A stretch of 61,662 nucleotides of DNA from a virus, in the IMG/VR virus record IMGVR_UViG_3300010885_026530, positions 1 to 61,662 of that record; one strand, written 5' to 3'. The notes below the pieces were generated by a model that was not told the origin of the DNA, ran no database searches, and saw only the letters and a list, made by a program, of their open reading frames with translations. Positions 1 to 19,111 of the stretch are shown here, piece by piece. The translations under genes were made by a program, and so were the position numbers. The number at the start of each line of letters is the position of its first letter. The stretch's first letter is position 1.

Positions 1-1260
1 GTGACGACAACGTGCCACTACCTGCATGTAAGGACTAGCAGTATATCCGTTGGGCATTTCAAAATAGTCATTGACGCATTCTTCTAGGATCACAGGAGCA
101 AATGGTCGGAACTTTTGTCTGCGTTTGATTTCATTGACGCGGTCCTTGATCTTGCTGCCTCTAGGGTCTGCAAGGAGGCTACGGTTTCCCAGTGCGCGGG
201 GACCGAACTCGGCTCTTCCTGATGCCACTCCGACAATCTGTTCAGTAAGTAACTTATCCATAAGCTCCACAACAGGATAAGGCCCAGGAATATCATGACC
301 GAGATAAGGATTTCTCCAGTTAACTCTATGTCCATGAGCCAAAGCGGCAGCACCAAGGCTACTACCGGCATCACCAGGATTAGGCATAATCCAAATATTT
401 TCATAGATGTCTCCAAGATTTCTGTTGGCCAAGCAGTTTAGTGCCACACCGCCCATGTACACAAGATTGGTTTCTCCTGTAAGTTCTTTGGCTTTTTTCA
501 TTACACTTATTATCAAATCTTCAACTACCAGCTGACTGGCACAAGCAATATCTTCATTGCTGGCTGCTTCTAATAATGTAGGCGGGACACCTATGTGAAA
601 GTTTTCACGTAACTTGATATCATGATAGTCTTTGACAACAAAGTTACTTAAAGTTTGATACCATGAATCTTTACCCCAGGCTGCCATGCCCATGGTAATG
701 TATTCTTCGTCCATGGGTCGTAGTCCCACACGGTCAGTCATTGCACTGTAAAACAAGCCAATCGAATGTGGATAACGTTGTCGCCACACACGTTTGTATT
801 TGGCCTTGCCTTTGGAATCATACCGGGCACGGTAGATTGAAATGGTATCTAACTCTCCAATGGCATCTATTACAACAACTGCCGCACTGTCGTAGGGCGA
901 AGTTTGAAATCCAGCGGCTGCATGACTCAGATGATGGTTAAAGCTGATTTCACAACGAGCGGGTGTTTGATACCAAGAGCCAAGATGTTGCTTTAATACG
1001 CCTCGAGTGGTCCAAGGCCCAAAATGTTGTTGTCCAGAATAAATCTGTTGAATATTATGCACCCAAGGACGTTCATAGAAAGCTATGGTGTCATAGTTCC
1101 ATTCACAGAGTTCGTTGAGTAACTCTGGGGATACCGTAGGATCATTTTTAATCTTACTGTAGCGTTCTGAGTGGCCAGCAAAGACTATTTCGCCATCTGA
1201 GTTGATGACAGTGGCTGCGGCATCATGAAACCCTGCACTAATACCTAAGATATGTTTCAT
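1..1260 (-). CDS. Carbamoyltransferase, NodU/CmcH family (C-terminus off the left edge)
   Basis: Enzymes of this family transfer a carbamoyl group from carbamoyl phosphate, through a carbamoyl-adenylate, to a hydroxyl of a sugar or antibiotic. The translation begins with residues 6-17 GISAGFHDAAAT, the conserved ATP-binding-fold start. It carries a metal-binding-type NHHLSHAAAGF near residue 110, then GRAEFGPRALGNR near residue 347 and FAPVILEE near residue 387, both hallmarks of the C-terminal YrdC-like half. 420 codons are open to base 1. Family members are usually about 550-600 residues, so the C-terminus lies outside the window. ATG 1260 overlaps the stop of the 33-aa ORF by ATGA, so the two are probably translationally coupled. 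It is the last visible gene of the leftward radical SAM/glycosyltransferase operon, which suggests the acceptor is a phage-built or host surface glycan. The acceptor itself is inference. Confidence 0.93.
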   Translation of the reverse strand, partial: MKHILGISAGFHDAAATVINSDGEIVFAGHSERYSKIKNDPTVSPELLNELCEWNYDTIAFYERPWVHNIQQIYSGQQHFGPWTTRGVLKQHLGSWYQTPARCEISFNHHLSHAAAGFQTSPYDSAAVVVIDAIGELDTISIYRARYDSKGKAKYKRVWRQRYPHSIGLFYSAMTDRVGLRPMDEEYITMGMAAWGKDSWYQTLSNFVVKDYHDIKLRENFHIGVPPTLLEAASNEDIACASQLVVEDLIISVMKKAKELTGETNLVYMGGVALNCLANRNLGDIYENIWIMPNPGDAGSSLGAAALAHGHRVNWRNPYLGHDIPGPYPVVELMDKLLTEQIVGVASGRAEFGPRALGNRSLLADPRGSKIKDRVNEIKRRQKFRPFAPVILEECVNDYFEMPNGYTASPYMQVVARCRH

Positions 1261-1358
1261 TTGTAGATAAAAGGATCTCGTTTGCGAAGTTCTTTTAGCT
1301 TTTTGCGATAGCGTATTTCTAGTTTGATTCTGCTAATCAAGTTTTTTAGCCATTTCAT
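1257..1358 (-). CDS. 33-aa basic peptide, unknown function
   Basis: A short ORF overlapped at both ends by ATGA: its ATG sits in the stop of the 366-aa gene (1355-1358) and its TGA lies in the start of the carbamoyltransferase (1257-1260). This exact double coupling in a compact operon argues that it is translated. It begins MKWLKNLIS, is rich in Lys and Arg, is predicted helical and amphipathic through the middle, and ends LRKRDPFIYK. I recall, without being able to check, that similar short basic ORFs ending in a DPFIY-type tail precede carbamoyltransferases in other aquatic phages. No domain can be assigned. Possible roles are a small partner of the carbamoyltransferase, a membrane-surface peptide, or a substrate of the radical SAM enzymes. 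None is shown by the sequence. Confidence 0.7.
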   Translation of the reverse strand: MKWLKNLISRIKLEIRYRKKLKELRKRDPFIYK

Positions 1359-2455
1359 TTACTGCCTCCAATAATGTCAATCTGTTGTTGTGCGTAAGTA
1401 CGATCACTCCAGCAGTAATCATACACAGCACGAGCGTCCGTGGTACTCACGCTGTACACATCAAGATGTGTATTTAGGCGCTGCCAGATAGCCTGGTAAT
1501 CATTTGTCCAGAAAGTATCAATGAGATCAACTTGTCCAATCTGTGGATGCCCAATGGTCAGCGCAGGATCTTCGGGATCAAACTCATTGACTATCAACCA
1601 CTCTCTAAACTCTTTAAGCCGTATTTTCTGCCATTCATAGTTGCCGGGATTGTTGGCCCATTCTATATCAAAGTCGCCGGCAGCTTCTGTTTGACTGCGC
1701 AGTGTGGTTGACACTAACTCGCCCACTCTGCTGTCTCTGCCTTCATCTTGAAACACTTCCCAATGATGTTTGCCCACTGCTTTGTTTACTCCAACAAACA
1801 CTCCGCCCAGGGGTCTGTTGATTGTTTCTATACCAAACAACTCATAGTCTTTTTCGTCTAGTACAAAGCGTGGTGCGTTGAGCCAACACATCAGCTGACT
1901 GGGTCTTTGCCACTCAGGTGCTTCTATTTGTTTGCGATAACTCAATGCCCAGGATTCGAACTCATGACACAACAGGTTGAGCTGACGTATATGCCAACGT
2001 GTTTTGGCATCGGCCCGTTGGTAATATTCTTTTGGTGCACCGCTGACTCCTTGAAGATCTTCAAAGTATCTGTGTAACCAGTTGAGCTTTTCTTGTCGTA
2101 TGTTGCGTCCTGCTGTGCGACCATCAATGGCATCGTCTGTGACAGTGTTTGACATGTCAAAGTAATCGTCAATGCGATAGCCAAGGTCGGCACGATTGAT
2201 AGCATCAATGCTACGATTTACTTCATTGAGTATGTGCCAACCGTTTCTTTTATGATCAACAAAGCCAAAGAAACAGTAGTTCTTTTCTAAATGATAGTTG
2301 TTGCGTAGCAAGTCATTGAGAGCTGTGAGCCACTTGTGACTCAACGAGTTATCAAACACATTGATCTTAACAGAAAACAACTCTCGTGTTTGTCTGTTCC
2401 GAAGTTCAATCGTTACTTGGTCTAATGTCTTGCCACCAGGCATATATGTCTGCAT
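1355..2455 (-). CDS. Unknown 366-aa protein of the radical SAM operon
   Basis: I do not recognise a named family. The protein looks soluble: no signal peptide or membrane segment is visible, and Trp, Tyr, Asp and Asn are frequent. An N-terminal block of about 100 residues contains FGFVDHKRNGWHILNEVN. The middle has an INRADLGYRIDDYFD block, and later there are KHHWEVFQDEGRDSR and DFDIEWANNPG. No CxxxCxxC or glycosyltransferase motif is present. The first 50 bases overlap the preceding radical SAM gene in another frame. A second in-frame ATG four codons on (2443) could be the start. Its position between a radical SAM gene and the 33-aa ORF suggests a role in the same pathway, possibly as a substrate-handling or accessory protein. 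Confidence 0.75.
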   Translation of the reverse strand: MQTYMPGGKTLDQVTIELRNRQTRELFSVKINVFDNSLSHKWLTALNDLLRNNYHLEKNYCFFGFVDHKRNGWHILNEVNRSIDAINRADLGYRIDDYFDMSNTVTDDAIDGRTAGRNIRQEKLNWLHRYFEDLQGVSGAPKEYYQRADAKTRWHIRQLNLLCHEFESWALSYRKQIEAPEWQRPSQLMCWLNAPRFVLDEKDYELFGIETINRPLGGVFVGVNKAVGKHHWEVFQDEGRDSRVGELVSTTLRSQTEAAGDFDIEWANNPGNYEWQKIRLKEFREWLIVNEFDPEDPALTIGHPQIGQVDLIDTFWTNDYQAIWQRLNTHLDVYSVSTTDARAVYDYCWSDRTYAQQQIDIIGGSK

Positions 2456-3704
2456 CTTGTTTTAATATGTCGTTCATGGTGAACGAATCATTCCTTATCT
2501 GTTCTAATTTTAACACACGAGTCTTGCCCTTTGCAAGGCCTGCTTGATATTGATCTGGCCATTGTTCTTCAAAGTTAGGGCGATTCTTAAGTTGTAGTAG
2601 CACATCTGTTAAAGCACCATGTGTGGCGGGAATCAAACAATCAACAGTACGATTCAACAGCTCTCTGGGCAGTGCCAACGGGCTCATTACAATGTCTGGA
2701 GTAAACGCAAATACTACTTTGGCCAGAATATCAACTCCTAGTTCATTGGCAGTGCGTTGCATGTTTTCTACTTCGAACAGGCCGGGCAGAGTCAACGTAA
2801 AGTCCAGTCGCATTTGTCTGCGATGCCGAGCTATTTCCAACCCACGACGGAAGTTTTCTAAAAATACGGGCCAGGCCAGACCGGTTCTGATGTATTCTCC
2901 GATTTGTCCTGTTCCGTCGATGCTGGCACAGATTTGGAAGTCACGTATATTTGATAGCAAATCACGATAAAGACTAATCCCATTATAATCCACGCGGCTA
3001 AGGTTGGTATTGTATCTTGCATAAAGTTTAGGTCCATCATTTAGTTCAATAATTCTTTTCATATAACGCCAATGCTGTTCATACATCAGCGGTTCTCCGC
3101 CCACCCAATAGATTTCTTCTATACGATGTTCTTCTACTGCTTGGGCAAACTCTGCTTCTATCTGTGTGTCCTGGAACTTTGTGATTTCACGTTTGACTTC
3201 GGGACGCATCCAGTTGTTTTTGGGATTGGACCAGTCAACCATGTCATGACGCTTTTCCTCAGTTTCCCAAGAGCTTGACAGCATGTCACCACACATACGA
3301 CATTTAAAGTTACAGAGATTACTAAATCTATAATCCCAGCTCACAGGTTTCATTGTAGTGAATCCATCTGGAGCGGTTGATTGCATGGCTTCATCATATT
3401 TGTGACCAAACAACCCCCAAAAATAACTGCGATAGACATCAGTATTTAAGAGCTTGCTGTTGCACACATCACATTCTGGCAAGGTTTCTCCTGCCATCAT
3501 GCGTCGGCGCACTGATTTCATATGCTCACTGTTCCAATGTTCATCTAAGGTAATAGGAATATATTGACCTGTGCCAGCGGCTGTGTCTATGTACTGTTCA
3601 AAGTTCTGTGCAGGTTCTCTGCTGGCACAGCACATACGTCGTTCAGTTTGAGGACTTAGATAGGTATGCGTCCAGGGGGCCATGCAAAGTGTTTCAGGAC
3701 GCAT
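2406..3704 (-). CDS. Radical SAM protein A, N-terminal twitch/auxiliary-cluster type
   Basis: The radical SAM cluster motif CNFKCRMC gives Cys131, Cys135 and Cys138, followed by GGEPLM near residue 200, the usual SAM-binding GGE. The N-terminus has Cys7 in CMAPWTH, then a CC pair at residues 25-26, and CDVC at residues 78-81. These extra cysteines look like a twitch/SPASM-like auxiliary Fe-S site placed before the barrel. Enzymes of this type often modify peptides or sugars through a 5-deoxyadenosyl radical. The start ATG 3704 lies 11 bases inside the preceding GT10-like gene, with GGAG upstream. It shares the CxxPWxH...CC layout with proteins B and C but is clearly diverged from them. The substrate is unknown. 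Confidence 0.9.
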   Translation of the reverse strand: MRPETLCMAPWTHTYLSPQTERRMCCASREPAQNFEQYIDTAAGTGQYIPITLDEHWNSEHMKSVRRRMMAGETLPECDVCNSKLLNTDVYRSYFWGLFGHKYDEAMQSTAPDGFTTMKPVSWDYRFSNLCNFKCRMCGDMLSSSWETEEKRHDMVDWSNPKNNWMRPEVKREITKFQDTQIEAEFAQAVEEHRIEEIYWVGGEPLMYEQHWRYMKRIIELNDGPKLYARYNTNLSRVDYNGISLYRDLLSNIRDFQICASIDGTGQIGEYIRTGLAWPVFLENFRRGLEIARHRRQMRLDFTLTLPGLFEVENMQRTANELGVDILAKVVFAFTPDIVMSPLALPRELLNRTVDCLIPATHGALTDVLLQLKNRPNFEEQWPDQYQAGLAKGKTRVLKLEQIRNDSFTMNDILKQDADIYAWWQDIRPSND

Positions 3705-4599
3705 TGATATACTCCTGTAAAGGATTTATTATGTCTTCCTTTATCACAGTCTTTAAATGATTAAGATTGTAAAATCTATTTTTGTTGTAAACCACACGAT
3801 CTCTTGTTTCGTCATCGTAAGGTTGTATCTGATATTGTTTGACATTTTTCGCAATGATATCTAACTTACCTGCGTTAAAATCTACATCATCGTAACTCTC
3901 ATCAAAGATATTATTGTATGTTTCGAAGCCCCAACTGCGTAGATGTTTCAGAGTGCCATTGGGTCCAACAACCATGTAAGGGTGCATGTAAGCAATGGGC
4001 TTCCAGGTTTTTTCTGTAATAAATCCGCGACCAGTGACCAGGGTTTCTACTGCTATGGAAAATGATGTGGAATCATACCATTCAGGATTAAAGTATCGTT
4101 GCCAGTTGATAAAATCACCAGGCTCTCGTTTTTCCAATGGAAGATCGTTGGGCAACATACGATTATGATAGCTCCAAATAAACTGATCGAGCCAGGGTGC
4201 TAGTTTTTGTAGTGCCATGTCTCTGTGCGGTCGCGGTCTACACATGGGCATGAGTGCAAGTTTGCTGTAGTTTCTTGTGGGATAGTAGCGGTCGTACCCC
4301 AACATCATATACCAATGAGCTTCATTGATCCAAAACCATCGTAGAGAAGAGATGGTATGAAATCGTGGATGTGGATCTCTATATTCCCAAAGCTCTTCAA
4401 CTGCAACACGATAGCCTTGTTCATATAGCTTGTCGGCTAACTCTACGTCAGAGTTATGGTGTGTTACAAACAATGAACTTTTATCATAGGTAGTGTTGGC
4501 ATCCCATTGCCGGAATCTAAACCATTGCAAAAACACTGGCAACAAGTAGCGAGTCATAAACGCAGATTTATATTCAGGTAATAATACTAAGTCGATCAT
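3694..4599 (-). CDS. GT10-like glycosyltransferase 1 (fucosyltransferase-like C-terminus)
   Basis: The C-terminal half carries GFITEKTWKPIAYMHPYMVV followed by LRSWGFETYNNIFDESYDD. An E-x-K motif, then a proline-containing nucleotide-site strand and a GF.T....DES block, recalls the C-terminal half of GT-B enzymes such as alpha-1,3-fucosyltransferases. The N-terminal half is not recognisable. Two more genes in this operon (8518-9531 and 10929-11918) have the same C-terminal block, so these are paralogues. TAATG links its ATG to the stop of radical SAM B, and its 3' end overlaps radical SAM A. The donor sugar and acceptor cannot be read from the sequence. An alternative is a non-catalytic relative used in glycan recognition. 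Confidence 0.65.
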   Translation of the reverse strand: MIDLVLLPEYKSAFMTRYLLPVFLQWFRFRQWDANTTYDKSSLFVTHHNSDVELADKLYEQGYRVAVEELWEYRDPHPRFHTISSLRWFWINEAHWYMMLGYDRYYPTRNYSKLALMPMCRPRPHRDMALQKLAPWLDQFIWSYHNRMLPNDLPLEKREPGDFINWQRYFNPEWYDSTSFSIAVETLVTGRGFITEKTWKPIAYMHPYMVVGPNGTLKHLRSWGFETYNNIFDESYDDVDFNAGKLDIIAKNVKQYQIQPYDDETRDRVVYNKNRFYNLNHLKTVIKEDIINPLQEYINAS

Positions 4600-5804
4600 T
4601 AATATCCAATGGCATTAGCAAGCTCAGGCAGGTAATCGCCTAGCCGTTGCTGACGTTTAAAATCTAAATCCTCAATCTTCATTCGTAAGAGTTTGCCATC
4701 TAAGCTGGCACCATTATTCATAAAATCAATGACTCGATTAATCTCATCTCTAAATGTCAACGGTATCTTGGCCTTTGTTAATCTTTCAGTGGCCACACGT
4801 TTGGCTTCCGCAGGCAAAGTGCCAATACTAAAATAGTAAGCATCATGCAACATATTCCAATACACAAAATCAAAATCCTGTGTGTCAATCCACTGTGCTA
4901 CATCTTCAAGATACATTACATTGAACACATTGATTGTGCAACACACCTGCAAAGTCATGTTGAGATTTCTTTCGCGCATGGCTCGGAACTTTTCAATGTT
5001 TTCACAAACTTCTGTCCAATGTGCGTTGGTACGTTGGTACTCAAAACGCGACTCAACATCGTCAATGCTAAACGCAATCTCTACATGTTTAAAATACTGC
5101 CAAATCTCTTCGGCTTCTTCAGGATACTGAGTGCCGTTGGTATTGTAATGTATTTCTATCTGATGTGCATAGTTTTTCTCAACTAACCTTTTTAAGAGAT
5201 CAAAATGCTCACGAATCATAAAAGGTTCGCCACCTGTGAACTCTATGTAACGAACTTCACTCATGGCAGAATCTAACTGCGCCCAAAACTGTTCGCTTTC
5301 TCTGGGCCAGGCGCCATCACGTAACATTTGATAATGAAAGCTGGTTTTCTTTTCTTCCTTGTCAATGATGAAGTTGAGTTCTTCTGTGGCAAACTGTGAG
5401 CTAGACCATGATCCACAGATACGGCATTTAAGATTGCAGATGTTTCCTAACTTGAGATCCAGAAACATCAAGGGCTTGGCATCTGCTGTCCAGTCTTCTG
5501 AAATGCCCATGTGCTTGAGTCTGTCCAAGGTATGCATACGCTTGCTGGTACGTCCAGCACGTTCTTCATTCCAACAACGACGACAGGTCTGCGGTTGTTC
5601 GCCAGCAAGAAACTGCTCTCTAAGAGATCTCATGTGCCGACTGTTTTGTATTTCCTGGAATCCTGCTTGATTGAGCTTGAACTTGTTGCCCTGATCGTCT
5701 AGGATTTCGTCTGTGGCAAGACAGCACGGGCGTACTGTGCCAATGGGGCTGGCTTCAATGCTGACCCAAGGTAGTACGCAGAATTTATTGTGTGGTATTT
5801 TCAT
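4599..5804 (-). CDS. Radical SAM protein B, N-terminal twitch/auxiliary-cluster type
   Basis: It carries the radical SAM motif CNLKCRIC near residue 122 and TGGEPFM about 80 residues on. The N-terminus has FCVLPW at residue 8, a CC pair at residues 27-28 in VRPCCLA, and CRRCWNEERAG, the same auxiliary cysteine pattern as proteins A and C. ATG 5804 is chosen over an upstream TTG (5813) because it follows the TGA of protein C by one base and begins MKIPHNKFC, directly before the first conserved cysteine. Its stop overlaps the next ATG as TAATG. Expected chemistry is reductive cleavage of SAM to a 5-deoxyadenosyl radical in the cytoplasm. The product is unknown. Confidence 0.9.
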   Translation of the reverse strand: MKIPHNKFCVLPWVSIEASPIGTVRPCCLATDEILDDQGNKFKLNQAGFQEIQNSRHMRSLREQFLAGEQPQTCRRCWNEERAGRTSKRMHTLDRLKHMGISEDWTADAKPLMFLDLKLGNICNLKCRICGSWSSSQFATEELNFIIDKEEKKTSFHYQMLRDGAWPRESEQFWAQLDSAMSEVRYIEFTGGEPFMIREHFDLLKRLVEKNYAHQIEIHYNTNGTQYPEEAEEIWQYFKHVEIAFSIDDVESRFEYQRTNAHWTEVCENIEKFRAMRERNLNMTLQVCCTINVFNVMYLEDVAQWIDTQDFDFVYWNMLHDAYYFSIGTLPAEAKRVATERLTKAKIPLTFRDEINRVIDFMNNGASLDGKLLRMKIEDLDFKRQQRLGDYLPELANAIGY

Positions 5805-5805
5805 A

Positions 5806-7176
5806 TCATTCAAATTGACTATGGTCTTTCAACACTCGGTGTGAGCGAGCAATGGGTAAACGTCGATTGTCAGGTTTATAGCTGGCCAGCTCTACCAACT
5901 CAGGCACAACCTGTTCCAACGATTCATTTCTTGCCCAATCTAAGTCCATCACAGTTTTCCAGAACTCTGGCAACATGTGACTGTTATCTGTGGCCATCAT
6001 AAAAGAAATGGCAGCTTGAAATCCGCCCACTGCACGTTGAATAGGATCTCGCGGTGTCAACCATTCAATATGCTCCTCAAACTCTTTCTTAAAACGTTGC
6101 TTGAGTTCTGCTGGCAACAGATCAATACGATAGTTCATAGGACCTTGCAAAATATTAAGATTAAAGTCTTTGGGTTCAATGAAGCCTTGGTCGATCATAT
6201 AACGATGATACTTCACAAAGTTCCAAATATTCATCAAACTCAGGGTAGGACTAATCATAAAATCAATGTGCGGGCACTCACGTTTGATATCTCGAATGTT
6301 TTGTTCTACCTGCGCCCAGTCTGTTCCTGAGCGTATGACGGCAGCACGTTCACCCATGTCATCCAAACTGGCTGCCACACAAACGTTGGGGAAATGCTTC
6401 CAAAGATCTATCACACTTTCCTTTTTAAAACGCAGTTCAGTCAAGTTAGTGTTGTAGATCAGTCGAACATTGGTATTGCCCTTGGCGATCAACAGTTTAA
6501 GAATACGATTGTGCTCTTCCATGATCAAGGGTTCGCCGCCTGCAAAATAAATCTGATCCAGGTGTGGAACATGCTCTTGCATCTGTTCCCACACGTCTTC
6601 TTCATGACGGCCGGCAAACTGCACACGTGGGCGTAGTTCCTTGCCCCAAAGTTTGATGTCATCATCATACCAGCGACTTGAAAATATTGATCCGCAACTA
6701 CGGCATTTTAAGTTACAAATATTACTAAAACGCACATCCCAATAGTGCAACTTCATGTCAGGCGAAGATCCATCTGGCAGAGTTTGATCAATGAGATCAA
6801 TGTGCTGGCCAAAGTTTTTATTGGAGTTGTTGCGCATGCTGGCAAAACCCGCTGACTCTTGTTCATAGCAATCGCCACACTCTGCGCAGGGCTGATCCGC
6901 TAACATGTTGCGGCGCATCTGTCGCATGGGTTCGTCGTTCCAGATTTCCTTCATTGATTTCTCTTTGAAGTTGCCCACAGGATGTTCGGCCTTGCCTAGA
7001 CAACAAGGATATGCACGACCATCGGGCCATGCGTGTAAGTGGATCCAGGGCAACATACAAAATGTGTCCGAGTGCATCAACTGGTGTTGTTGTTTTTCGT
7101 TTAGTTGTTCTAAAGGAATCCAACTGGGTACTCGGTCCTTCCAGTTGTAGTTGCTAAGGTTACTTTTCTTTGTCAT
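5806..7176 (-). CDS. Radical SAM protein C, N-terminal twitch/auxiliary-cluster type
   Basis: It shows the radical SAM motif CNLKCRSC near residue 150, then AGGEPLIMEEH. The N-terminal auxiliary pattern is especially clear: FCMLPWIHLHAWPDG followed by AYPCCLG, and CAECGDCYEQESAG. An extra 35 or so residues precede the first cysteine. ATG 7176 (MTKKSNLS) overlaps the TGA of protein D as ATGA and is preferred over the TTG at 7191. It is closest in layout to protein B, which it directly precedes in the operon, so the pair probably arose by duplication. The substrate is unknown. Confidence 0.9.
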   Translation of the reverse strand: MTKKSNLSNYNWKDRVPSWIPLEQLNEKQQHQLMHSDTFCMLPWIHLHAWPDGRAYPCCLGKAEHPVGNFKEKSMKEIWNDEPMRQMRRNMLADQPCAECGDCYEQESAGFASMRNNSNKNFGQHIDLIDQTLPDGSSPDMKLHYWDVRFSNICNLKCRSCGSIFSSRWYDDDIKLWGKELRPRVQFAGRHEEDVWEQMQEHVPHLDQIYFAGGEPLIMEEHNRILKLLIAKGNTNVRLIYNTNLTELRFKKESVIDLWKHFPNVCVAASLDDMGERAAVIRSGTDWAQVEQNIRDIKRECPHIDFMISPTLSLMNIWNFVKYHRYMIDQGFIEPKDFNLNILQGPMNYRIDLLPAELKQRFKKEFEEHIEWLTPRDPIQRAVGGFQAAISFMMATDNSHMLPEFWKTVMDLDWARNESLEQVVPELVELASYKPDNRRLPIARSHRVLKDHSQFE

Positions 7177-8525: not shown

Positions 8526-9531
8526 TGACGAAATCTTTCATTTGCTGTGTAAATGTCTGTTGTTGACTACTATGTATCGCTAGTGCATGATGCTGATTAT
8601 ATAAACGCACTTGGTGTGTTTCTGCCCAAAACTTTGACAAATCTTGTTTGACTAACCAAACCACTTGTTCTACCAGGCGTTCGATACGGTGTTGCCCGTT
8701 ATCTATCTGATCAAAACTTTCGTCAATCCACTCTCCATATGTTTTGAATCCCATATTACGAAGATCTTGATAGAATCCGCGATTGGCGCAGACCACAAAA
8801 GGATGCCCTGCCAACACAGGTTTATAAAACTTTTCCGTCCTAAAACTAGCAGGAGATTCAAATACAGTTTCCGGTACTAAAGTAAACCAGGTATCTCGAT
8901 ACTGTTGCGGTACTATTACACCGTCAACCCATCCAGGATTGTTTTCAGCATCATACCCTGCGGGCAGTGTTTGTGTTGGGACTTGGGTCTCTGAATACAC
9001 ATGATTGAACTCAGGGTGTCCCCAAGTTATATCTCGATCATGATTGCACCATAAAGCCTTGTCAAACAGTCTGCGTTGCTGTAATAGATCAATAAGATAT
9101 TGACGATGTGGTCTGAGTTTTCTATTGGTAAAGAGAAAGCTGTAACGGCAAGTATGTTTATTGAGATCCAGCAATGGAATCCCATAGGGTTGACTACCGA
9201 TGGTTGCTGCCAGAAAATGCTCTGAGTTTAAGTTAACTATTCCATTGGGTGCATCGCCGCCAGTGATCCAGCGTATTTGGCCAGAGAGCATTCTAGTAAC
9301 ATAGTGCTGATTGGATATCATGTGCCATTGCGTGACTGGACTTTCATCTGTTTTTTCAATGATGATTTTACCGCCCATTTCTAGTATATCACACGCCCTG
9401 GGCCACTGACTGACAAATGTTTTTAAACTGATCACGTAAGCGTCTGCAGTCATGCTCAACTGCCCCAACTGGATTTCACTGTCAGGCTTTAAGTAGTTTA
9501 ATGCCAGTCCAGGTTCAACTATGATTTGCAT
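8518..9531 (-). CDS. GT10-like glycosyltransferase 2
   Basis: This is a paralogue of the genes at 3694-4599 and 10929-11918. The shared C-terminal block reads FRTEKFYKPVLAGHPFVV and then LRNMGFKTYGEWIDESFD. The E-x-K motif and the GF.T....DES segment resemble the nucleotide-sugar-binding half of GT-B enzymes of the fucosyltransferase type. The N-terminal half (MQIIVEPGL...) is unrelated by eye to the other two, as expected if each copy has its own acceptor. It lies between radical SAM genes E and D and overlaps both. No signal peptide or membrane helix is seen, so it should act in the cytoplasm. Confidence 0.62.
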   Translation of the reverse strand: MQIIVEPGLALNYLKPDSEIQLGQLSMTADAYVISLKTFVSQWPRACDILEMGGKIIIEKTDESPVTQWHMISNQHYVTRMLSGQIRWITGGDAPNGIVNLNSEHFLAATIGSQPYGIPLLDLNKHTCRYSFLFTNRKLRPHRQYLIDLLQQRRLFDKALWCNHDRDITWGHPEFNHVYSETQVPTQTLPAGYDAENNPGWVDGVIVPQQYRDTWFTLVPETVFESPASFRTEKFYKPVLAGHPFVVCANRGFYQDLRNMGFKTYGEWIDESFDQIDNGQHRIERLVEQVVWLVKQDLSKFWAETHQVRLYNQHHALAIHSSQQQTFTQQMKDFVNA

Positions 9532-10936
9532 GATAGCCGCAATCTACCCACCATTCGACCATTTCTGGAAAGACCTTTAGGAATCGTGTGCCACGGCGTC
9601 GATCGTGTTCGTTGAAGAATCTGTAAAAGTCTGCTTTTTGTCTGCGCACATAATCAGGATCCAGCTTGGCACCATCTCGCATCCAAGCAATGTCTCGATC
9701 CAGTCTGCTGAGTTCGTAGTCTTTGAAACCTTTGAATCTGGTTTCTTCAGTTTCAAGATTTTTCATCATCCACACCCAGGTAGATTCTAACCTGTCTGTG
9801 TAGCTCTCTGGCAGCAGTTGCATGCTTTGCCAGCTAGGTGTACGCAACACAGGAGTATCAAACCACACTCTCTGGTAGGTATTTGAATAGATTTGTCGTA
9901 AGCCCAAGATAGATACCATGAGATCCTGGAAACTGGTAACCGACAGATTATTCATTGTGATAATAAACGTGATGCTGGAGCGGCCTGGAATCTCTGTCAA
10001 GAATTGATTTACCCGATCCCATAACAATCTAAAATCCAATCCATTACGAATATATTCAGCCTTGTCCATCCATGCATCAAGACTCACATACTGCATGAAG
10101 TGTTCAACTTTTTCTTTTTCGCACAGCATTTTGACATAGCCAAGATATCTTTGCCACAGCTTTTCGTCCACTGAAAAGTTTGATGTAACATTTAGATGTA
10201 GCTTGGGGTTGTCGTGTGTGAGAACATAGTCAAACACCTTGTATGTGTTTTTATCCATCAGCGGTTCGCCGCCGGTCATTCGAAAGTGTTCTAGTTCTGG
10301 ATACAAGGTGGGCCACCATGACCAAAATGCATCTACATAGGGGTTGTCTTCTCTGTTGGGTATGGGTCTACGTTCACCTGTAAAATATGCAGGATCGTTG
10401 TGTGGGGTTGATGTAGGAAAAGCACCTTCACGTTCAGCTTCGTCCATCCAACTAGAACTAAACTGTGGACTACAATAACTACATTTTAGATTGCATGCTG
10501 AGTTAAAGTTAACTTCAACATAACTAGGAACAACATCTTGCTCCCAAGGCGCCTGAGTAATCTTTTCAAAATCACGGGCGGCCCACGGCTCGCCCGAACG
10601 GTAGTGGCGATCACTGAGTTTACCGTTGTCTTCCATGGTCCAGCAGTACTGACACTCTCCTGGTCGAGTTCCTTCCAGCATTAGCTTACGCTGTTGTTTT
10701 TTATGCTCAGTGTTGTGAATGCCTGACGGGCTTCGTTGAATATCTTCTATACGGATTTTATGCAATGGAGGATGGTAACATGAGTTGGTATGCCCTGTGG
10801 TCAAATGAAGACTGACCTGTTTCCATTTGGCCAAGCACATACTAGGACTTACTGCATCTAGCTTTTCTTTCATTATCTCAGCATCACTGAGAAACTTTGA
10901 TTTAAAGTCTGATGTTACTTCATCTCCTTTATTCAT
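9515..10936 (-). CDS. Radical SAM protein E, variant subfamily
   Basis: It carries the radical SAM motif CNLKCSYC near residue 150, then TGGEPLM. The N-terminus has MCLAKWKQ, NSCYHPP and CQYCWTMEDNG, matching protein D rather than A-C. Both D and E also have a short HNT.KK basic stretch between the second and third cysteine groups. ATG 10936 lies 8 bases inside the end of the GT10-like gene 3. At 473 residues it is the longest radical SAM protein here. It probably acts one step away from D on a similar substrate; that is inference from the paralogy and adjacency. Confidence 0.9.
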   Translation of the reverse strand: MNKGDEVTSDFKSKFLSDAEIMKEKLDAVSPSMCLAKWKQVSLHLTTGHTNSCYHPPLHKIRIEDIQRSPSGIHNTEHKKQQRKLMLEGTRPGECQYCWTMEDNGKLSDRHYRSGEPWAARDFEKITQAPWEQDVVPSYVEVNFNSACNLKCSYCSPQFSSSWMDEAEREGAFPTSTPHNDPAYFTGERRPIPNREDNPYVDAFWSWWPTLYPELEHFRMTGGEPLMDKNTYKVFDYVLTHDNPKLHLNVTSNFSVDEKLWQRYLGYVKMLCEKEKVEHFMQYVSLDAWMDKAEYIRNGLDFRLLWDRVNQFLTEIPGRSSITFIITMNNLSVTSFQDLMVSILGLRQIYSNTYQRVWFDTPVLRTPSWQSMQLLPESYTDRLESTWVWMMKNLETEETRFKGFKDYELSRLDRDIAWMRDGAKLDPDYVRRQKADFYRFFNEHDRRRGTRFLKVFPEMVEWWVDCGYHANHS

Positions 10937-11918
10937 GGAATATTTCCTTAAACGTTTTTGGATCCAACGACATCAGCAGATTATAGTTGTGTTCCAATGT
11001 TGGTTTCATTTCATTGTGCATCTGTTGTAGTTCATCCAGGGTCATGTTGTTTATTTGTTTAACAACATGAAAAATGCTTTGTACTTGGCAGTCATAAGGA
11101 TCTTCGCCGAATCCTTCGTCCCACCATTGGTGAAAAGTTTGAAAACCAAGTCGACGTAGATTGTTATAGTAATCTTTTGGTCCTTGAATAATGAAAGGAG
11201 TTTTAAGTGCCAGTGGTCTCCAAATTTTTTCAGTTGGATAAAAAGTGTTGCCCGTGAAATATGTTTCGCACACAATCTCTACAAAAAAAGTATGATATAC
11301 CTTGGCAATATTAAGATGCGCAGGACTTAGCATAGGATATGACTCTTCTATATCCTGTATCATAATGGGGCTGGTTTTGATAAGTTCTAGCGCACACTCA
11401 AGTTCTTTGTGCGTATGTGGAACTTTTAGCATGTCATCAAATCCTAAATGATCTCTATGATAAGTTTTATTGCAGTCATAATGAAAGGTCAACGCAGTTT
11501 GAGATGTATATTGATCAAACATGTGGGAAGCCATGCGTAACCGTGTACCATTGCTTCTTCCAATGAACATACCAAATTTTTTAAACTGTGCATCAAAAGT
11601 TTTTGTAGAAAATAGCTGTTGATTGTCCATCACAAACTTCTGCGTTTCGTATATGTACAAGGGAGGTATTTTTACAATACAATATTCGCTGTGTTTTTCA
11701 AGTTGATTACAAGTGTGTATAGTGATATTTTTTTTATTGTAAGAAAACTTTTCACACAGTTTGTCAAGCAGACAATACAATCCCAATGTTTCACAGCATG
11801 GTCCTTCTCCATTGAGAGAAATATCAACTGCTTTTTGTTGTGTCATTGACTCAACAATATCAGCAGTGCGATCTTCTATATTCCAGATCTTGCTGTCAAT
11901 GTTTGGCAAGACAATCAT
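10929..11918 (-). CDS. GT10-like glycosyltransferase 3
   Basis: The C-terminal block reads FYPTEKIWRPLALKTPFIIQ and then LRRLGFQTFHQWWDEGF. This is the third copy of the E-x-K block found at 3694-4599 and 8518-9531. ATG 11918 (MIVLPNIDSK) overlaps the SGNH gene stop as ATGA and is preferred over the upstream in-frame start at 11957, which lies well inside the SGNH gene. The N-terminal half contains a Cys-rich stretch near GEGPCCETLGLYC with no recognised domain. This gene locally uses more AT-rich codons than its neighbours, which may point to separate acquisition. Confidence 0.62.
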   Translation of the reverse strand: MIVLPNIDSKIWNIEDRTADIVESMTQQKAVDISLNGEGPCCETLGLYCLLDKLCEKFSYNKKNITIHTCNQLEKHSEYCIVKIPPLYIYETQKFVMDNQQLFSTKTFDAQFKKFGMFIGRSNGTRLRMASHMFDQYTSQTALTFHYDCNKTYHRDHLGFDDMLKVPHTHKELECALELIKTSPIMIQDIEESYPMLSPAHLNIAKVYHTFFVEIVCETYFTGNTFYPTEKIWRPLALKTPFIIQGPKDYYNNLRRLGFQTFHQWWDEGFGEDPYDCQVQSIFHVVKQINNMTLDELQQMHNEMKPTLEHNYNLLMSLDPKTFKEIFHE

Positions 11919-12613
11919 TGTTTTTCTTTCAGAAAAGTATAAAAATCCTGTGCCCAAATTTTGTTTGCATCAACACCCGGGTGGATGTTGTCAGTGTCGT
12001 AATCATTTATTGATTGAGTGACATCATATAGATTAGTTCGATTGTAAATATGTTTCCAATCAAGCTGTTTTGCAAAATCTCCCATTGACTCTACATAGTT
12101 TTGATAAAAAGCAAAAGCATATGGTATGGATCTACTTTTTAAATAACTCTCAAGACTCAACATATTATAAAAGCTACGTTGCAAATGAGTTTTAAAGTCT
12201 TGGTGTTTGTAGATCTTTTCAAACAGTCCGTGCTTTGTTAACCAGGAATCTTTGTTTAAATGTCCCATTCCGAATACCCAGTTCTTTTGTACATAATCCT
12301 GATCGTTGATGGGTTCAACAATTTTTTCCGGCCAGTCATTTTGCAAACTTTGATACTTGCTTGTATATTTGGTTTGATCAAAATAATCAATGTTGTCAAC
12401 TTGTAGATCCACTCGTTCAAGACCTGACCACATGACTAGAACTAAATCGTAGGATCGTTGTTGTAACTCGGCCATGATACTTCGACTGATGTAGGTATTA
12501 CCTGCACCGGCCTGTGCAAGATTTACTAAGTCAGCGTTGAATAGTTTGGCCATATGGTTTGGCCAAGCAATAGGTCCCCGACTAAAACTACAGCCAGATG
12601 TTAGTATTTTCAT
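11915..12613 (-). CDS. SGNH/GDSL-type hydrolase
   Basis: It begins MKILTSGCSFS, where GCSFS is the block I region with the probable catalytic serine. It continues with NLAQAGAGN (oxyanion-hole Gly and Asn) and ends with DNIHPGVDAN, the D-x-x-H block V with catalytic Asp and His. Such enzymes cleave or transfer acyl groups, often acetyl groups on sugars. ATG 12613 overlaps the preceding stop as TAATG and is better than the TTG at 12619. At 232 residues it is a compact single-domain enzyme with no signal peptide, so it should act in the cytoplasm. In this operon a deacetylase or acyltransferase for a glycan is the simplest reading. Confidence 0.82.
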   Translation of the reverse strand: MKILTSGCSFSRGPIAWPNHMAKLFNADLVNLAQAGAGNTYISRSIMAELQQRSYDLVLVMWSGLERVDLQVDNIDYFDQTKYTSKYQSLQNDWPEKIVEPINDQDYVQKNWVFGMGHLNKDSWLTKHGLFEKIYKHQDFKTHLQRSFYNMLSLESYLKSRSIPYAFAFYQNYVESMGDFAKQLDWKHIYNRTNLYDVTQSINDYDTDNIHPGVDANKIWAQDFYTFLKEKQ

Positions 12614-13542
12614 TACCAACCTTCTTGGCTCCGTATGACATCAATCTCTCTGGTCATTACACCACGATTGTGCCAGTTTGAGCGATAGTGATCTTTGAAA
12701 AATGCACTTTGAAACGGAGGCATAAACGCCATGGGCAGGCCTAGCTGTGTGTTCAGTGGCTCGTGATACTGATCAATCAAATCTGCTGGTTCTCTAGGTG
12801 CTGCCACTGCTTCCCAAATATTTTTGAGGCAATCAAAGTTTTGCACTTCTTTATGATCCCACTCACTGAGCATGGTCATAAACGTACCTTGGCGAGCGCC
12901 GGCAATGGCCCAAAACCCATTTTCAACATCACAGCCCACGTTGTGCCAAATAGAAAGATGATCAAAGTTTCGTTTGTGTACACGATCTTTGAATTCACTG
13001 ACTGTGGGTTTTTTGCCACGATCCAGGCACATCTTTACACCTTCACGAAACCCTGCTCGCCAGGCGTGGAAAGGTGACCCATTGGGATAAGTGGTTGAGT
13101 AGCAATCGTGCATGGGCCAGTACAGCGGATCAAAACAAAACTCTACTTCTGTTTCTGTACGACCGTCTGTGTTTTCATGTGTTTTCATGTTCCATACAAA
13201 CTCACGTGTCCACGAACTGATGCCACCGTTGCCGTACATCAGGCCATTGATGTGATTGTGAGCCCGCCAACGATACACCGCTCGTTCCCATTCATCACTA
13301 TGATATTCCAGTGTGAGATTAAAGAACCGCTCATCTGGCAAGTTGTCACCGTCAATGAGTATAAAGCGTTCTGTCTCGCTGGCATCAGCCGCGGCTTTGT
13401 GTGCGGCATCTGATCCTTTGACGCCATCTACTCGTTTGGCCCAAGGAACCATGTTCTTAATGCGCACCCAAAACTCTTCCTTTTGTGGTTCATCATAACT
13501 CAAGTAAATGCAGTCTAAGTCTGCTATGTCAATCTGATTCAT
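12613..13542 (-). CDS. GT-A-like glycosyltransferase family protein (DGDN motif)
   Basis: The N-terminus reads DLDCIYLSYDEP, then VPWAKRVDGVKGSD and RFILIDGDNLPDERFF. The DGDN segment sits where a DxD metal and nucleotide-sugar site is expected in GT-A folds. The C-terminal half is rich in Trp and His (HDCYSTTYPNGSPFHAWRAG) and may form the acceptor site. I recall this N-terminal block from unnamed aquatic phage proteins but no characterised member. It overlaps its neighbours by 14 and 7 bases. A glycosyltransferase role is inferred from the motif and from the flanking sugar-enzyme genes. The donor is unknown. Confidence 0.65.
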   Translation of the reverse strand: MNQIDIADLDCIYLSYDEPQKEEFWVRIKNMVPWAKRVDGVKGSDAAHKAAADASETERFILIDGDNLPDERFFNLTLEYHSDEWERAVYRWRAHNHINGLMYGNGGISSWTREFVWNMKTHENTDGRTETEVEFCFDPLYWPMHDCYSTTYPNGSPFHAWRAGFREGVKMCLDRGKKPTVSEFKDRVHKRNFDHLSIWHNVGCDVENGFWAIAGARQGTFMTMLSEWDHKEVQNFDCLKNIWEAVAAPREPADLIDQYHEPLNTQLGLPMAFMPPFQSAFFKDHYRSNWHNRGVMTREIDVIRSQEGW

Positions 13543-13873
13543 AAGTTGTTTTCACTTCCCAATGTTGTTTGTTTTCTGCGTTGTTGTCAACGACAATAGT
13601 GATATCTTGCGGGTGGCAAGGTGTACCTTGATCCGCAGGTGCCAGCTTCCAACTGGCCGGATGATTTAACTTTACAATTTTTCCATCCTTGATTCGAATA
13701 TCAAATCGTTGTTGATCAAATGTCACTCGATCTATCACAAGAAATGTACCTGGCAAATCTTCCATGCTGTAGTATAACACATTTCCTGTGTCGTTATAGT
13801 AGAGTCTAAACTCTTGCCTAACTTCGGGCGGTGCCCAATCGTGTGCGTTAGCGGCTTGCCAAAAGGCGTCCAT
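13529..13873 (-). CDS. Unknown 114-aa protein
   Basis: I do not recognise this protein. It is small and probably all-beta in its C-terminal two thirds (GTFLVIDRVTFDQQRFDIRI), with one cysteine (TPCHPQD). The start overlaps the preceding GT8-like gene by 26 bases and the stop overlaps the next gene by 14 bases. It has no signal peptide or membrane segment. Its place between two glycosyltransferase-like genes suggests an accessory function in the same pathway. The frame is well supported by the overlap pattern and by the lack of any competing ORF. Confidence 0.7.
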   Translation of the reverse strand: MDAFWQAANAHDWAPPEVRQEFRLYYNDTGNVLYYSMEDLPGTFLVIDRVTFDQQRFDIRIKDGKIVKLNHPASWKLAPADQGTPCHPQDITIVVDNNAENKQHWEVKTTYESD

Positions 13874-14678
13874 AATGTTCCTCTAGTTCTTTGGCAAAGG
13901 ACTTGTGATGATAATGCACAAGACCCTGTTGCTCTACTGTGTTGATTCTCAATCTACCATCCACCAGCTCCCAAACCATTTCAGCAGTCCAGGGTCTGGC
14001 ATCTGTTTTTAAAAAGTTCACAGCAGGTTTCATGTGTGTCATGGCAGGCCATGCATGGGGCAACGTTACTTGTTCTACTCCTATGTATTTGGCAACCATG
14101 GCATAGATCATGTCTGTGTTGGCTGAAACACTGTCACAATACTTTAATGTTTGTCTTGCTGTGGGCCATTGATCAAAAAATAAACGCACCAAATAAAAAA
14201 ACTCAGCCGCGGTTTGACTAAATCTCCAATAGGTCACAGCGTTATACACATCAGGCAGGTCATTGTCATCAAACAATCTACGATACGCACGAGTTGGACT
14301 GGGTTCGTTAAGATAGTTTTTGATACCACGGCTGACTACAACATCGCGGTGTTCAAACCAGCTCCACCAATGATCAATGTTTTCAACTACCACAGTGTCT
14401 GCTTCAAGTTTGATAGTTTCTCTAAAAGGACTAGCATGAAATGCTTGCCAGTCATTGCTGAGTTTCCATGTGCCGTTGGGGTCTTGATCACCGTAGGGAA
14501 AAGGTCTAACAATATCAAACACAGGATCTGTTTCGTTGGCATCGGTCACCAAACAAATCTTGCATTCAGGCATCCAGTATCGCAAACTCTTGGCCAAGGC
14601 ACGAGCACAGGCAACATAGTTATCTTGCCCGTTGTTGGATGCCAGTATTAGATAACCGCGTTCAAATTCTACTGCCAC
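13848..14678 (-). CDS. GT8-like glycosyltransferase
   Basis: The N-terminus GYLILASNN followed by ACARALAKSLRYWMP and ICLVTDAN resembles glycogenin-type GT-A enzymes, where a short Rossmann-like start is followed by a repeated-visit helix. KLEADTVVVENIDHW is in the position of the DxD site, with ADT in place of the classical DxD. That makes metal binding uncertain and could mean altered or lost activity. It overlaps the downstream 114-aa gene and is directly preceded by a second GT8-like gene with an intact DTD. The two are probably diverged duplicates. Confidence 0.68.
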   Translation of the reverse strand: MAVEFERGYLILASNNGQDNYVACARALAKSLRYWMPECKICLVTDANETDPVFDIVRPFPYGDQDPNGTWKLSNDWQAFHASPFRETIKLEADTVVVENIDHWWSWFEHRDVVVSRGIKNYLNEPSPTRAYRRLFDDNDLPDVYNAVTYWRFSQTAAEFFYLVRLFFDQWPTARQTLKYCDSVSANTDMIYAMVAKYIGVEQVTLPHAWPAMTHMKPAVNFLKTDARPWTAEMVWELVDGRLRINTVEQQGLVHYHHKSFAKELEEHYGRLLASR

Positions 14679-15483
14679 AAATCTTCCCCAAGTCAGGTTT
14701 GTTCATTACATGCAAATCGCAATCACGCAGAATCATTCGATAGTGCCGGGCTTGATTATCTATCATGCGCACATAGTTGAGTTGGAACACATTATCTTCA
14801 AGTTGATTTAGATACACATCATAAAAACTTGTAAACAACGGCCACGGAATACTGGGTACCACAGATGGCAAATGTCCATACACAGTATTAAGTGCTATGC
14901 TGATGGCATAATCGTTGCGATAGGGTTCCTGATTAAACTTGTAAAGACGACTGTAGTGATACCAGTTATCCTCAATCATGTTCATCATATCAAACACAGA
15001 TTCAGCTGTGCGTGTGCGTTTGAAATACAGCACTGTGGCCCACCACATTGGAAACTCTGTTTCTCCAAAACGTGTGTCTCTAGCAAAGTTTCTACGGTCT
15101 GTGACATCAAGAACTTCTCTATGACACAGCAAGTCTTGCTGTGAATCAAATAACACTTTTAATCTGTCAGATGCCACAATATAGTCAGTGTCTAATACTA
15201 GAGTCTCATCATAAGGTGACACATCAAATGCACGACATCTTCCTCGGTTAAACCAGGTAGCTGACGAATCTGCGTTCATGTGATCAAACTTGCGTGTACC
15301 TCCTGACCGACTCTCACGTATGATCACTTGATCAAACATTGATACGTTGTTGGGCGTTTGATCTGTGACCAGCGTAACTGGCAGACCAAGATGCTGTGTG
15401 ATACGAGGTGCTGACCACTGTGCTTGACTTAGATAGTCTACACGGTCATTGTTAAAAGCAAAAAGTACAGCACCACGAGTCAT
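14662..15483 (-). CDS. GT8-like glycosyltransferase with DTD motif
   Basis: The protein starts MTRGAVLFAFNN, continues with LGLPVTLVTDQ and has DETLVLDTDYIV near residue 100, a good DxD metal/nucleotide-sugar motif in a GT-A context. The order (N-terminal strand, TD block, then the DxD strand) matches the gene that follows it. ATG 15483 overlaps the stop of the 103-aa gene as ATGA. The expected reaction is transfer of a sugar from a nucleotide donor in the cytoplasm. The acceptor is not known. An intact DTD here against the altered site in its neighbour suggests this copy is the active one. Confidence 0.7.
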   Translation of the reverse strand: MTRGAVLFAFNNDRVDYLSQAQWSAPRITQHLGLPVTLVTDQTPNNVSMFDQVIIRESRSGGTRKFDHMNADSSATWFNRGRCRAFDVSPYDETLVLDTDYIVASDRLKVLFDSQQDLLCHREVLDVTDRRNFARDTRFGETEFPMWWATVLYFKRTRTAESVFDMMNMIEDNWYHYSRLYKFNQEPYRNDYAISIALNTVYGHLPSVVPSIPWPLFTSFYDVYLNQLEDNVFQLNYVRMIDNQARHYRMILRDCDLHVMNKPDLGKICGSRI

Positions 15484-15791
15484 CGATTTTTACTCAGGGT
15501 TTCTAGTTCTATCATCCAGGCAGTGAGTTGCTCTTGCCAACGATCGTGTGCTAGATGTTGTAGTTCAACCACATTGACTTTTACAGGTGTGTCATAGAGA
15601 TCTACAATCACTGCATCTTCTGTAGGGCAAGCCTGTAGTAAGGTCAGCAGTTCGGCGCCTGCGCACCACATACCCCCACCATAAGCAAAGGTCATTTTGC
15701 TTTGATACTTTTCTTTCAAGAGCTTTTTTTGTGTTGCGTGATCAAAACGGCTCTTGATTTCTTGTGCTAGTTTTTCTGTGTTCAAGGTCAT
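15480..15791 (-). CDS. Conserved phage protein, 103 aa
   Basis: The sequence contains AYGGGMWCAGAELLTLL and VDLYDTPVKVNVVELQHLA, then a helical C-terminus (RWQEQLTAWMIELETL). I recall the second block as common in small unnamed proteins of T4-like phages of aquatic bacteria, but no function is known to me. It is the first gene of the leftward operon. The -10 box lies only 5 bases upstream of ATG 15791, and GGAG is one base from that ATG. A TTG at 15785 with seven-base spacing from GGAG may therefore be the real start, or the mRNA may be leaderless. Confidence 0.75.
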   Translation of the reverse strand: MTLNTEKLAQEIKSRFDHATQKKLLKEKYQSKMTFAYGGGMWCAGAELLTLLQACPTEDAVIVDLYDTPVKVNVVELQHLAHDRWQEQLTAWMIELETLSKNR

Positions 15792-15796
15792 ACTCC

Positions 15797-15825
15797 ATTA
15801 TAACAAAGTATGTACCAAAAGTAAA
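15797..15825 (-). promoter_or_regulatory. Sigma70-like promoter for the accessory operon
   Basis: On the minus strand, TTTACT (15820-15825) and a perfect TATAAT (15797-15802) are separated by 17 bases. It lies between the terminator hairpin and the first gene of the leftward operon. No T4-type late box is seen here, so this operon may be transcribed by unmodified host polymerase early in infection. The very short distance to ATG 15791 is unusual. Confidence 0.55.
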
Positions 15826-15844
15826 GGGCCCGGAGGCCCTTTTT
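15823..15844 (-). terminator. Hairpin terminator after the fibre gene
   Basis: An inverted repeat AAAGGGCC/GGCCCTTT with a four-base CGGA loop sits 20 bases past the stop of the 325-aa fibre gene. On the minus strand it is followed by TTT, AC and TTTT. On the plus strand it ends in five T. It should end transcription of the tail module and separate it from the accessory operon. Confidence 0.6.
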
Positions 15845-18941: not shown

Positions 18942-19111
18942 GCTCGTGTCTCCACAATGACTTCGTTGGTGTTTGGATCAAAGATTTTTACATGACCCAT
19001 TATGGCAAAACCAGCTCGTTCATTGGGCCGGGCCTGTGGTGCTTTCTGCACAGGATCGATTTTGGGTTGTTGTGCGGATTTATCGTTCATAGAACTATTT
19101 AGCTCGTCCAT
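18938..19111 (-). CDS. 57-aa protein carrying a duplicated KIFDPNT block
   Basis: ATG 19111 overlaps the TAA of the giant gene as TAATG and is preceded by a strong GGGAGGG ribosome site. The in-frame GTG at 19135 is therefore not needed. A polar, Gln/Pro-rich N-terminal half leads to GHVKIFDPNTNEVIVETRA at the very end. This last part closely matches the start of the following 200-aa protein (GFVKIFDPNTQEVFVDK). It looks like a truncated duplicate or a one-block partner that could add a strand to the same structure. Confidence 0.75.
   Translation of the reverse strand: MDELNSSMNDKSAQQPKIDPVQKAPQARPNERAGFAIMGHVKIFDPNTNEVIVETRA

Follow-up and report, generated by a model that had tools for sequence, protein, structure and literature searches.

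The virus record IMGVR_UViG_3300010885_026530 of IMG/VR, 61662 bases long and analysed here in its entirety (the window), begins with a leftward operon of 17 genes, numbered g1 to g17 from position 15791 down to 1. The operon encodes five radical S-adenosylmethionine (SAM) enzymes, a series of glycosyltransferase-like proteins, a microprotein of 33 amino acids (aa), g16, and an O-carbamoyltransferase, g17. Its core, consisting of g1 to g5, the five radical SAM genes, g15, g16 and g17, is inherited as a block among related viruses. We consider the chances evenly balanced that this is a phage-encoded operon for building and tailoring a saccharide of the virion or host surface, and we hold somewhat more firmly that its substrate is a glycan or a sugar-nucleotide; its product would be exposed either on fibres or at the host envelope, neither site being favoured.

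Block inheritance and the enzymes of the operon

The comparison covered 11 related contigs spanning the full region. Thirteen of the 17 genes (g1-g5, g8, g10, g11, g12, g14, g15, g16 and g17) occur in all 11, always in one order and with the same fibre-like gene ahead of them. The other four, g6, g7, g9 and g13, are absent, replaced or strongly diverged. An earlier note on this DNA had proposed, as a check, comparing whether the set is passed on together. The genes are not scattered and block inheritance holds for those 13 genes, but the SGNH hydrolase and GT10-like genes are swapped. Swapping and fast change of these genes against a stable core would follow from a diversifying acceptor specificity. 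The relatives are without exception uncultured contigs, the counts reported throughout are not phylogenetically independent, and two of the scans give lower bounds. A scan of IMG/VR with g11 alone returned 18 contigs at 76-90% identity, several of them 317-344 kb long, and the sample of large relatives comprised ten phage genomes of 317-361 kb (G001-G010). No cultured relative was found, because megablast of the operon against isolate phages gave no match and tblastn of g5, g15 and g16 against them found none, although divergent short peptides could be missed by such a search.

ORF (open reading frame) calling delineates the operon as an unbroken leftward run of 17 consecutive frames on the minus strand, in which neighbours overlap by 1-50 base pairs (bp) at every junction (Table 1). 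The contig ends within g17, the last gene, so that only part of the operon is seen, and the downstream half of the cluster lies outside the window. Upstream, the -10 box ends 5 nt ahead of the g1 start codon. The same succession, a hairpin followed by TATAAT placed 5-7 nt before the first ATG, recurs in 14 of the 14 loci compared at this junction (TACAAT in one). A conserved promoter sequence of the sigma70 type, preceded by a terminator, thus sets the operon apart from the fibre genes. From this spacing the transcript is predicted to start at or next to the ATG, leaving the first gene nearly leaderless. The spacing was not found at the other gene starts examined in the window, several of which show ATAAATA-like motifs; these are reminiscent of T4 late promoters and may correspond to them. 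Given this distinct promoter arrangement, the operon is probably expressed with a timing different from that of the fibre genes.

These results agree with most of what the earlier note had said of the layout, namely genes coupled by overlap, a sigma70-like promoter of the operon's own behind a terminator and a position next to the fibre genes, which is found in the window and in the relatives alike. The single overlapping run stands too, its fifteen genes becoming 17 once the ORFs of 103, 114 and 33 aa are counted. The attribution to a T4-like phage is borne out by recognizable genes for baseplate wedge and hub, late sigma factor, SbcC-like nuclease, portal and S77 prohead protease. The locus thus has the features of a fibre-adjacent hypervariable cassette: a T4-like genome, a position beside tail-fibre genes and the presence of glycosyltransferases.

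The five radical SAM proteins (g8, g10, g11, g12 and g14) reach 288-416 bits with NF033640, the twitch-domain radical SAM model whose curated cut-off is 170 bits. Each carries a CxxxCxxC motif, and their N-terminal cysteines are at least 90% conserved; in g8 the conserved residues are Cys 34, 53, 95 and 98, together with 148, 152 and 155. Fe-S clusters and radical chemistry are predicted for all five. In a tree built from 103 radical SAM proteins of these loci, the five fall into different clades, each of single origin and with starred support. They are old, separate and non-redundant paralogues kept as a set, a pattern that successive pathway steps would give. The most conserved is g11 (median 80% identity). 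The ten large relatives hold 5-15 matches to N_Twi_rSAM per genome, those beyond the five-gene set being scattered.

The 366-aa protein g15 accompanies these enzymes: it is present in 107 loci, 104 of which have a radical SAM gene in the same stretch, and no g15-radical SAM fusion was found when looked for. Its predicted model is confident (predicted local distance difference test, pLDDT, 85.5; predicted template modelling score, pTM, 0.85). Compared with the PDB it resembles no solved structure (best E 0.65), and among the predicted viral proteins of BFVD it has eight good matches, all uncharacterized phage proteins. The predicted fold of g15 is thus one that is not seen among solved structures.

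Support for the glycosyltransferase-like genes is uneven. The AlphaFold model of g5 (pLDDT 85.8) has as its best PDB fold match the PBCV-1 capsid glycosyltransferase 2p6w (E 2.6e-4, prob 1.00), at a low TM-score of 0.27/0.37, and a joint profile of g2 and g3 matches glycogenin weakly (E 0.008). The proteins g7, g9 and g13 have in common a motif around a conserved EK and gave no match to Pfam and PDB profiles, Pfam GT10 included. Of the enzymes listed in the earlier note, the five radical SAM proteins with auxiliary cysteines are confirmed by the model, motif and cysteines described above, the SGNH hydrolase by g6 passing Pfam DUF6071 (28.1 bits, cut-off 27) and the carbamoyltransferase by both Pfam domains of g17. 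Its six glycosyltransferases find tentative support in part, from the predicted GT-A fold of g5 with its low TM-scores and the weak glycogenin match of g2/g3, whereas 'GT10-like' is an unproven name for g7, g9 and g13.

The microprotein g16 and the carbamoyltransferase g17

The N- and C-terminal carbamoyltransferase domains of g17 are recognized well above their cut-offs (Carbam_trans_N 120.1 bits, cut-off 24, E 1.9e-34; Carbam_trans_C 99.3 bits, cut-off 27, E 2.3e-28), and NovN, GdmN and TobZ are its PDB relatives by sequence. Complete relatives are about 490 aa long. From its family membership, g17 is predicted to O-carbamoylate a hydroxyl.

The gene preceding it, g16, belongs to a family whose N-terminal part is variable and whose tail (ELRKRDPFIYK) is nearly invariant, being conserved across 171 distinct proteins. 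The codons of the tail vary freely at synonymous sites; the family is therefore conserved as protein, and conservation at the RNA level is ruled out. Scanning IMG/VR with the pattern RKRDPFIY returned at least 120 stretches, and in 99 of the 120 listed a g17-family carbamoyltransferase lies within 5 kb on the same strand. In the commonest arrangement the carbamoyltransferase start overlaps the microprotein stop codon by 4 bp; the order of the two genes is reversed in four loci. The reverse test, which started from 80 loci picked by carbamoyltransferase sequence alone and permitted E, V, L, M, F or W at the variable positions of the peptide, found the peptide upstream in 79. A radical SAM gene is lacking from the stretch in 11 of the 80, although these genomes may hold more distant ones. 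Each of the ten large genomes holds exactly one RKRDPFIY match and one carbamoyltransferase, about 2.3 kb apart at most, and the reversed control pattern has no match in them. No such microprotein was seen near the carbamoyltransferases inspected in isolate cyanophages, pelagiphages and XacN1.

The tail is found on different bodies. It ends microproteins whose N-terminal parts are amphipathic and basic, or acidic, and it also ends a SnoaL-like protein (L045) and a GatZ/KbaZ-like aldolase; in L045 and L080 the gene so tailed stands immediately ahead of the carbamoyltransferase. The SnoaL assignment in L045 is confirmed by Pfam; a further protein of SnoaL-like size, in L229, is recognized solely from its size and its tail. 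The carbamoyltransferases that go with a microprotein have just four residues specific to them (E63, E136, W290 and one C-terminal V), which is not enough to locate a docking site. That the DPFIY tail might mimic a host sequence was considered and rejected, 15 of the 16 GTDB matches being attributable to chance; the remaining match stands before an SGNH gene on a phage-like contig. A literature search for the motif found nothing.

The simplest reading of the tail is that of a docking element recruiting the carbamoyltransferase to a variable anchor, the binding itself being presumed, and g16 is rather likely to be a docking or recruiting partner of g17. More tentatively, and with somewhat less confidence than we place in the saccharide operon itself, RKRDPFIY could be a virus-specific, portable short linear motif at the C-terminus, by which phage O-carbamoyltransferases are brought to exchangeable anchors or cargoes (amphipathic or acidic microprotein, SnoaL-like protein, aldolase), and would wire g17 into a five-step radical SAM sugar-tailoring pathway using the unseen fold of g15.

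The microprotein comes immediately after a primase-like gene in about 29 loci (L048 and L141 among them), most of which have no radical SAM gene in the stretch; this indicates that microprotein and carbamoyltransferase can function as a pair without the operon. Of these loci, 23 have a DnaB-like helicase gene downstream, the pair sitting in a replication module. Six loci (L071, L102, L125, L132, L135 and L144) have tails ending in RKRDPFIYKN(H/V/K) and no carbamoyltransferase within 5 kb; they adjoin GT10-like, transketolase-like and nucleotidyltransferase-like genes.

Neighbours of the proposed sugar pathway and competing readings

Beyond the contig end of the window, the relatives supply further genes. 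An amidinotransferase of the AGAT/StrB family lies downstream of the carbamoyltransferase and convergent with it in 32 of 48 g15-positive loci and in none of 12 g15-negative ones. For this family, which includes the window protein at 50888-51925, profile A6 gives E 5.1e-24 with L-arginine:glycine amidinotransferase and E 6.5e-18 with inosamine-phosphate amidinotransferase, and the GHGDA and GGxSC stretches align with the matching active-site stretches of AGAT, which contain the conserved His/Asp and Cys. Further on come GT10-like genes, large repeat proteins and an overlapping pair of genes for an SDR epimerase and a DegT/StrS aminotransferase. Such a pair is 3-11 kb from the carbamoyltransferase in nine of the ten large genomes and about 25 kb away in the tenth, SDR epimerase genes as such being present in all ten. 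In the same genomes a PF00303 or ThyX gene is often close to the sugar epimerase gene. The enzyme classes DegT/StrS, amidinotransferase and carbamoyltransferase fit an amino sugar that may be guanidinylated, carbamoylated and otherwise tailored.

A route can be proposed on this basis. The nearby SDR epimerase and DegT/StrS aminotransferase would provide an activated (amino) sugar, which g2, g3, g5 and the swappable transferases would assemble. The five radical SAM enzymes, with g15, might then act one after another to oxidize or rearrange either the sugar or its acceptor, after which g17, recruited by g16, would O-carbamoylate the sugar. In this scheme the RKRDPFIY tail of g16 docks on g17 and its variable amphipathic N-terminal part may anchor the enzyme at a membrane or an enzyme assembly; the finished saccharide would be shown on fibres or host envelope. 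The nearby SDR and DegT/StrS genes and the convergent amidinotransferase are what supports a saccharide pathway. They also qualify the earlier suggestion of a complete multi-step pathway, which is incomplete inside the operon, and nothing indicates the glycopeptide product then entertained.

Several observations weigh against this scheme. The amidinotransferase is not next to the carbamoyltransferase in 16 of the 48 g15-positive loci, and three of the six glycosyltransferase-like genes are without database support. The primase-side loci hold the microprotein mostly without radical SAM genes. In some loci an SGNH gene directly follows the microprotein in place of the carbamoyltransferase, and in L075 a SAM synthetase does so. 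Substrate, product and localization, moreover, are all inferred. The synthetase gene of L075 (positions 26-900, minus strand) belongs to a radical SAM locus; none was found in the ten large relatives.

The earlier note had proposed modelling the 33-aa protein in complex with the radical SAM proteins, and g16 might be the precursor of a ribosomally synthesized and post-translationally modified peptide (RiPP) or of a cofactor, its DPFIY tail being cross-linked or modified by these enzymes as in MftA or PqqA, then glycosylated and carbamoylated. A short peptide whose invariant C-terminus contains the aromatic F and Y, and whose gene shares an operon with radical SAM and glycosyltransferase-like genes, is what such a pathway would look like, and the peptide maturase SkfB is among the relatives of the radical SAM profile. 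We nevertheless judge this unlikely. The peptide follows the carbamoyltransferase with near constancy, yet 11 of those 80 loci have no radical SAM gene in the stretch, nor do 63 of the 72 peptide loci that are not of type 1; no RiPP recognition element or peptidase was recognized in the operon with Pfam, NCBIfam and PHROGs (g1, g4 and g15 remaining unmatched), and a tail that also ends aldolase and SnoaL-like proteins would be odd for a precursor. The microprotein thus tracks the carbamoyltransferase as a partner rather than the radical SAM enzymes as a substrate. A product of small-molecule or nucleotide type, obtained by viperin-like chemistry on nucleotides or nucleotide sugars and manipulating the host or rival phages, seems to us about equally improbable. 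Viperin is the best solved relative of the radical SAM profile (E 3.3e-7), with cytosylglucuronate decarboxylase lower, and the StrS/StrB/TobZ-like classes are those of guanidino- and carbamoyl-sugar natural products. However, with the viperin models themselves the radical SAM proteins stay far under the cut-offs (at most 38.5 bits against 180), and a surface role accords better with the many glycosyltransferase-like genes that differ from relative to relative and with the constant linkage to fibre genes.

Two further explanations have, in our view, still smaller chances. One is DNA hypermodification, in which g17 would carbamoylate 5-hydroxymethylcytosine (5hmC) and the other enzymes would modify the bases further. 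A phage carbamoyltransferase with proven 5hmC activity exists (PMC8670742), and in many other phages the microprotein and carbamoyltransferase genes lie between primase-like and DnaB-like helicase genes. Yet g17 is only 26% identical to the proven enzyme, and the block adjoins fibre and amino-sugar genes. Across the ten large relatives PF00303 (four genomes) and ThyX (six) are strictly complementary, in one copy each, and the PF00303 gene inspected adjoins DHFR. PF00303 is therefore most likely an ordinary thymidylate synthase, there is no spare dCMP hydroxymethylase of that family, and this distribution rules against 5hmC carbamoylation as the principal explanation. The other supposes unrelated accessory modules (the carbamoyltransferase with its microprotein, the radical SAM set and the glycosyltransferases) stacked in a plastic region. 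Fibre-adjacent regions are known to be hypervariable (PMC7029224), the glycosyltransferase-like genes do swap, and the microprotein and carbamoyltransferase do occur without the radical SAM set. Against it, the same 13-gene order is kept in 11 of 11 contigs although some members are down to 37-50% identity, and the five radical SAM paralogues are retained together.

Known systems and features of the window

Pelagimyophages and cyanomyophages possess a fibre-adjacent hypervariable region holding cassettes of glycosyltransferase and radical SAM genes, which has been read as altering surface glycans (PMC7029224). The operon shares with these regions a T4-like genome, GT8-type glycosyltransferases and radical SAM genes beside tail-fibre genes; it differs in that a variable cassette is replaced by a fixed five-paralogue set with g15, microprotein and carbamoyltransferase, whose order is kept across divergent large phages. 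The T4-like ocean virus TARA_ERS488813_N000010 carries 12 radical SAM genes, grouped as Fe-S genes (PMC5332604), a number within the range of the ten large relatives (5-15); no operon and no link to a microprotein or carbamoyltransferase is described in the available part of that paper. The NodU, TobZ, GdmN and NovN O-carbamoyltransferases have both Pfam domains and sequence relatedness in common with g17, whose family is shorter and encoded with a dedicated microprotein. The phage 5hmC enzyme is likewise phage-encoded and of the same enzyme family, but a dCMP hydroxymethylase context like the one reported for that enzyme is lacking here. Mycofactocin and PQQ systems also combine a tiny peptide of invariant C-terminus with radical SAM enzymes in an operon, whereas the peptide described here co-occurs with a carbamoyltransferase. 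StrS/StrB/TobZ-type sugar pathways resemble the relatives in clustering DegT/StrS, amidinotransferase and carbamoyltransferase genes, which are here phage-borne and accompanied by glycosyltransferase-like and radical SAM genes beside fibre genes.

Three elements appear new: the fixed five-paralogue set inherited with g15 as a block, together with the g15 fold; an undescribed viral microprotein family with a portable tail and near-obligate carbamoyltransferase pairing; and the linkage of the operon to amidinotransferase and amino-sugar genes. If the proposed route is correct, uncultured giant phages would encode multi-step radical chemistry on surface sugars, together with guanidino and carbamoyl decorations that are otherwise a feature of natural-product pathways. 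The microproteins would form a new phage class in which a ten-residue tail predicts an adjacent carbamoyltransferase with near certainty, offering a protein-peptide pair open to direct test besides an unseen protein fold. The operon would also offer a way into an open question, the abundance of radical SAM genes in T4-like phages.

Table 1. Operon genes and associated features in the window (block counts refer to the 11 contigs compared)
Feature	Position	Strand	Remarks
Fibre-like genes, 325 aa and 478 aa	15864..18288	-	adjacent to the operon; precede it in relatives too
Intrinsic-terminator hairpin and promoter	15797..15842	-	hairpin 15842-15823, then TTTACT-17-TATAAT at 15825-15797
g1, 103 aa, conserved	15480..15791	-	11/11 in block, median 50% identity; no Pfam/PHROG match
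g2, 273 aa, probable GT8/glycogenin-like glycosyltransferase	14662..15483	-	11/11 in block
g3, 276 aa, probable GT8-like glycosyltransferase	13848..14678	-	phrog_1903 E 8.8e-6; 11/11 in block
g4, 114 aa, conserved	13529..13873	-	11/11 in block, median 39% identity
g5, 309 aa, GT-A fold glycosyltransferase-like	12613..13542	-	11/11 in block, median 72% identity
g6, 234 aa, SGNH/GDSL-type hydrolase (DUF6071)	11915..12619	-	swapped; in 1/11 blocks
g7, 342 aa, GT10-like by motif only	10929..11957	-	swapped among relatives; no PDB match
g8, radical SAM, N-terminal twitch	9515..10936	-	NF033640 310.7 bits
g9, 337 aa, GT10-like by motif only	8518..9531	-	fast-evolving; 10/11, median 33% identity
g10, radical SAM, N-terminal twitch	7173..8525	-	NF033640 305.5 bits
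g11, radical SAM, N-terminal twitch	5806..7191	-	NF033640 416.4 bits
g12, radical SAM, N-terminal twitch	4599..5813	-	NF033640 336.1 bits
g13, 301 aa, GT10-like by motif only	3694..4599	-	mostly absent at this position in relatives
g14, radical SAM, N-terminal twitch	2406..3704	-	NF033640 288.4 bits
g15, 366 aa, radical-SAM-associated protein	1355..2455	-	11/11 in block
g16, 33-aa microprotein	1257..1358	-	amphipathic basic N-terminal part and tail KELRKRDPFIYK
g17, NodU/TobZ-type O-carbamoyltransferase	1..1260	-	C-terminus cut by contig end
Amidinotransferase-family protein	50888..51925	-	paralogue of the g17-convergent one of relatives; linkage to the operon presumed

The amidinotransferase gene of the window lies near a T4 baseplate gene, and its product is about 36% identical to the convergent one of the relatives. 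The fibre and baseplate region includes one ORF of 4856 aa (19111-33681, minus strand). A sixth, divergent radical SAM gene (46956-47831, plus strand) is found between metallophosphatase-like and SbcC-like genes, that is, inside an apparent gp47/gp46 recombination pair.

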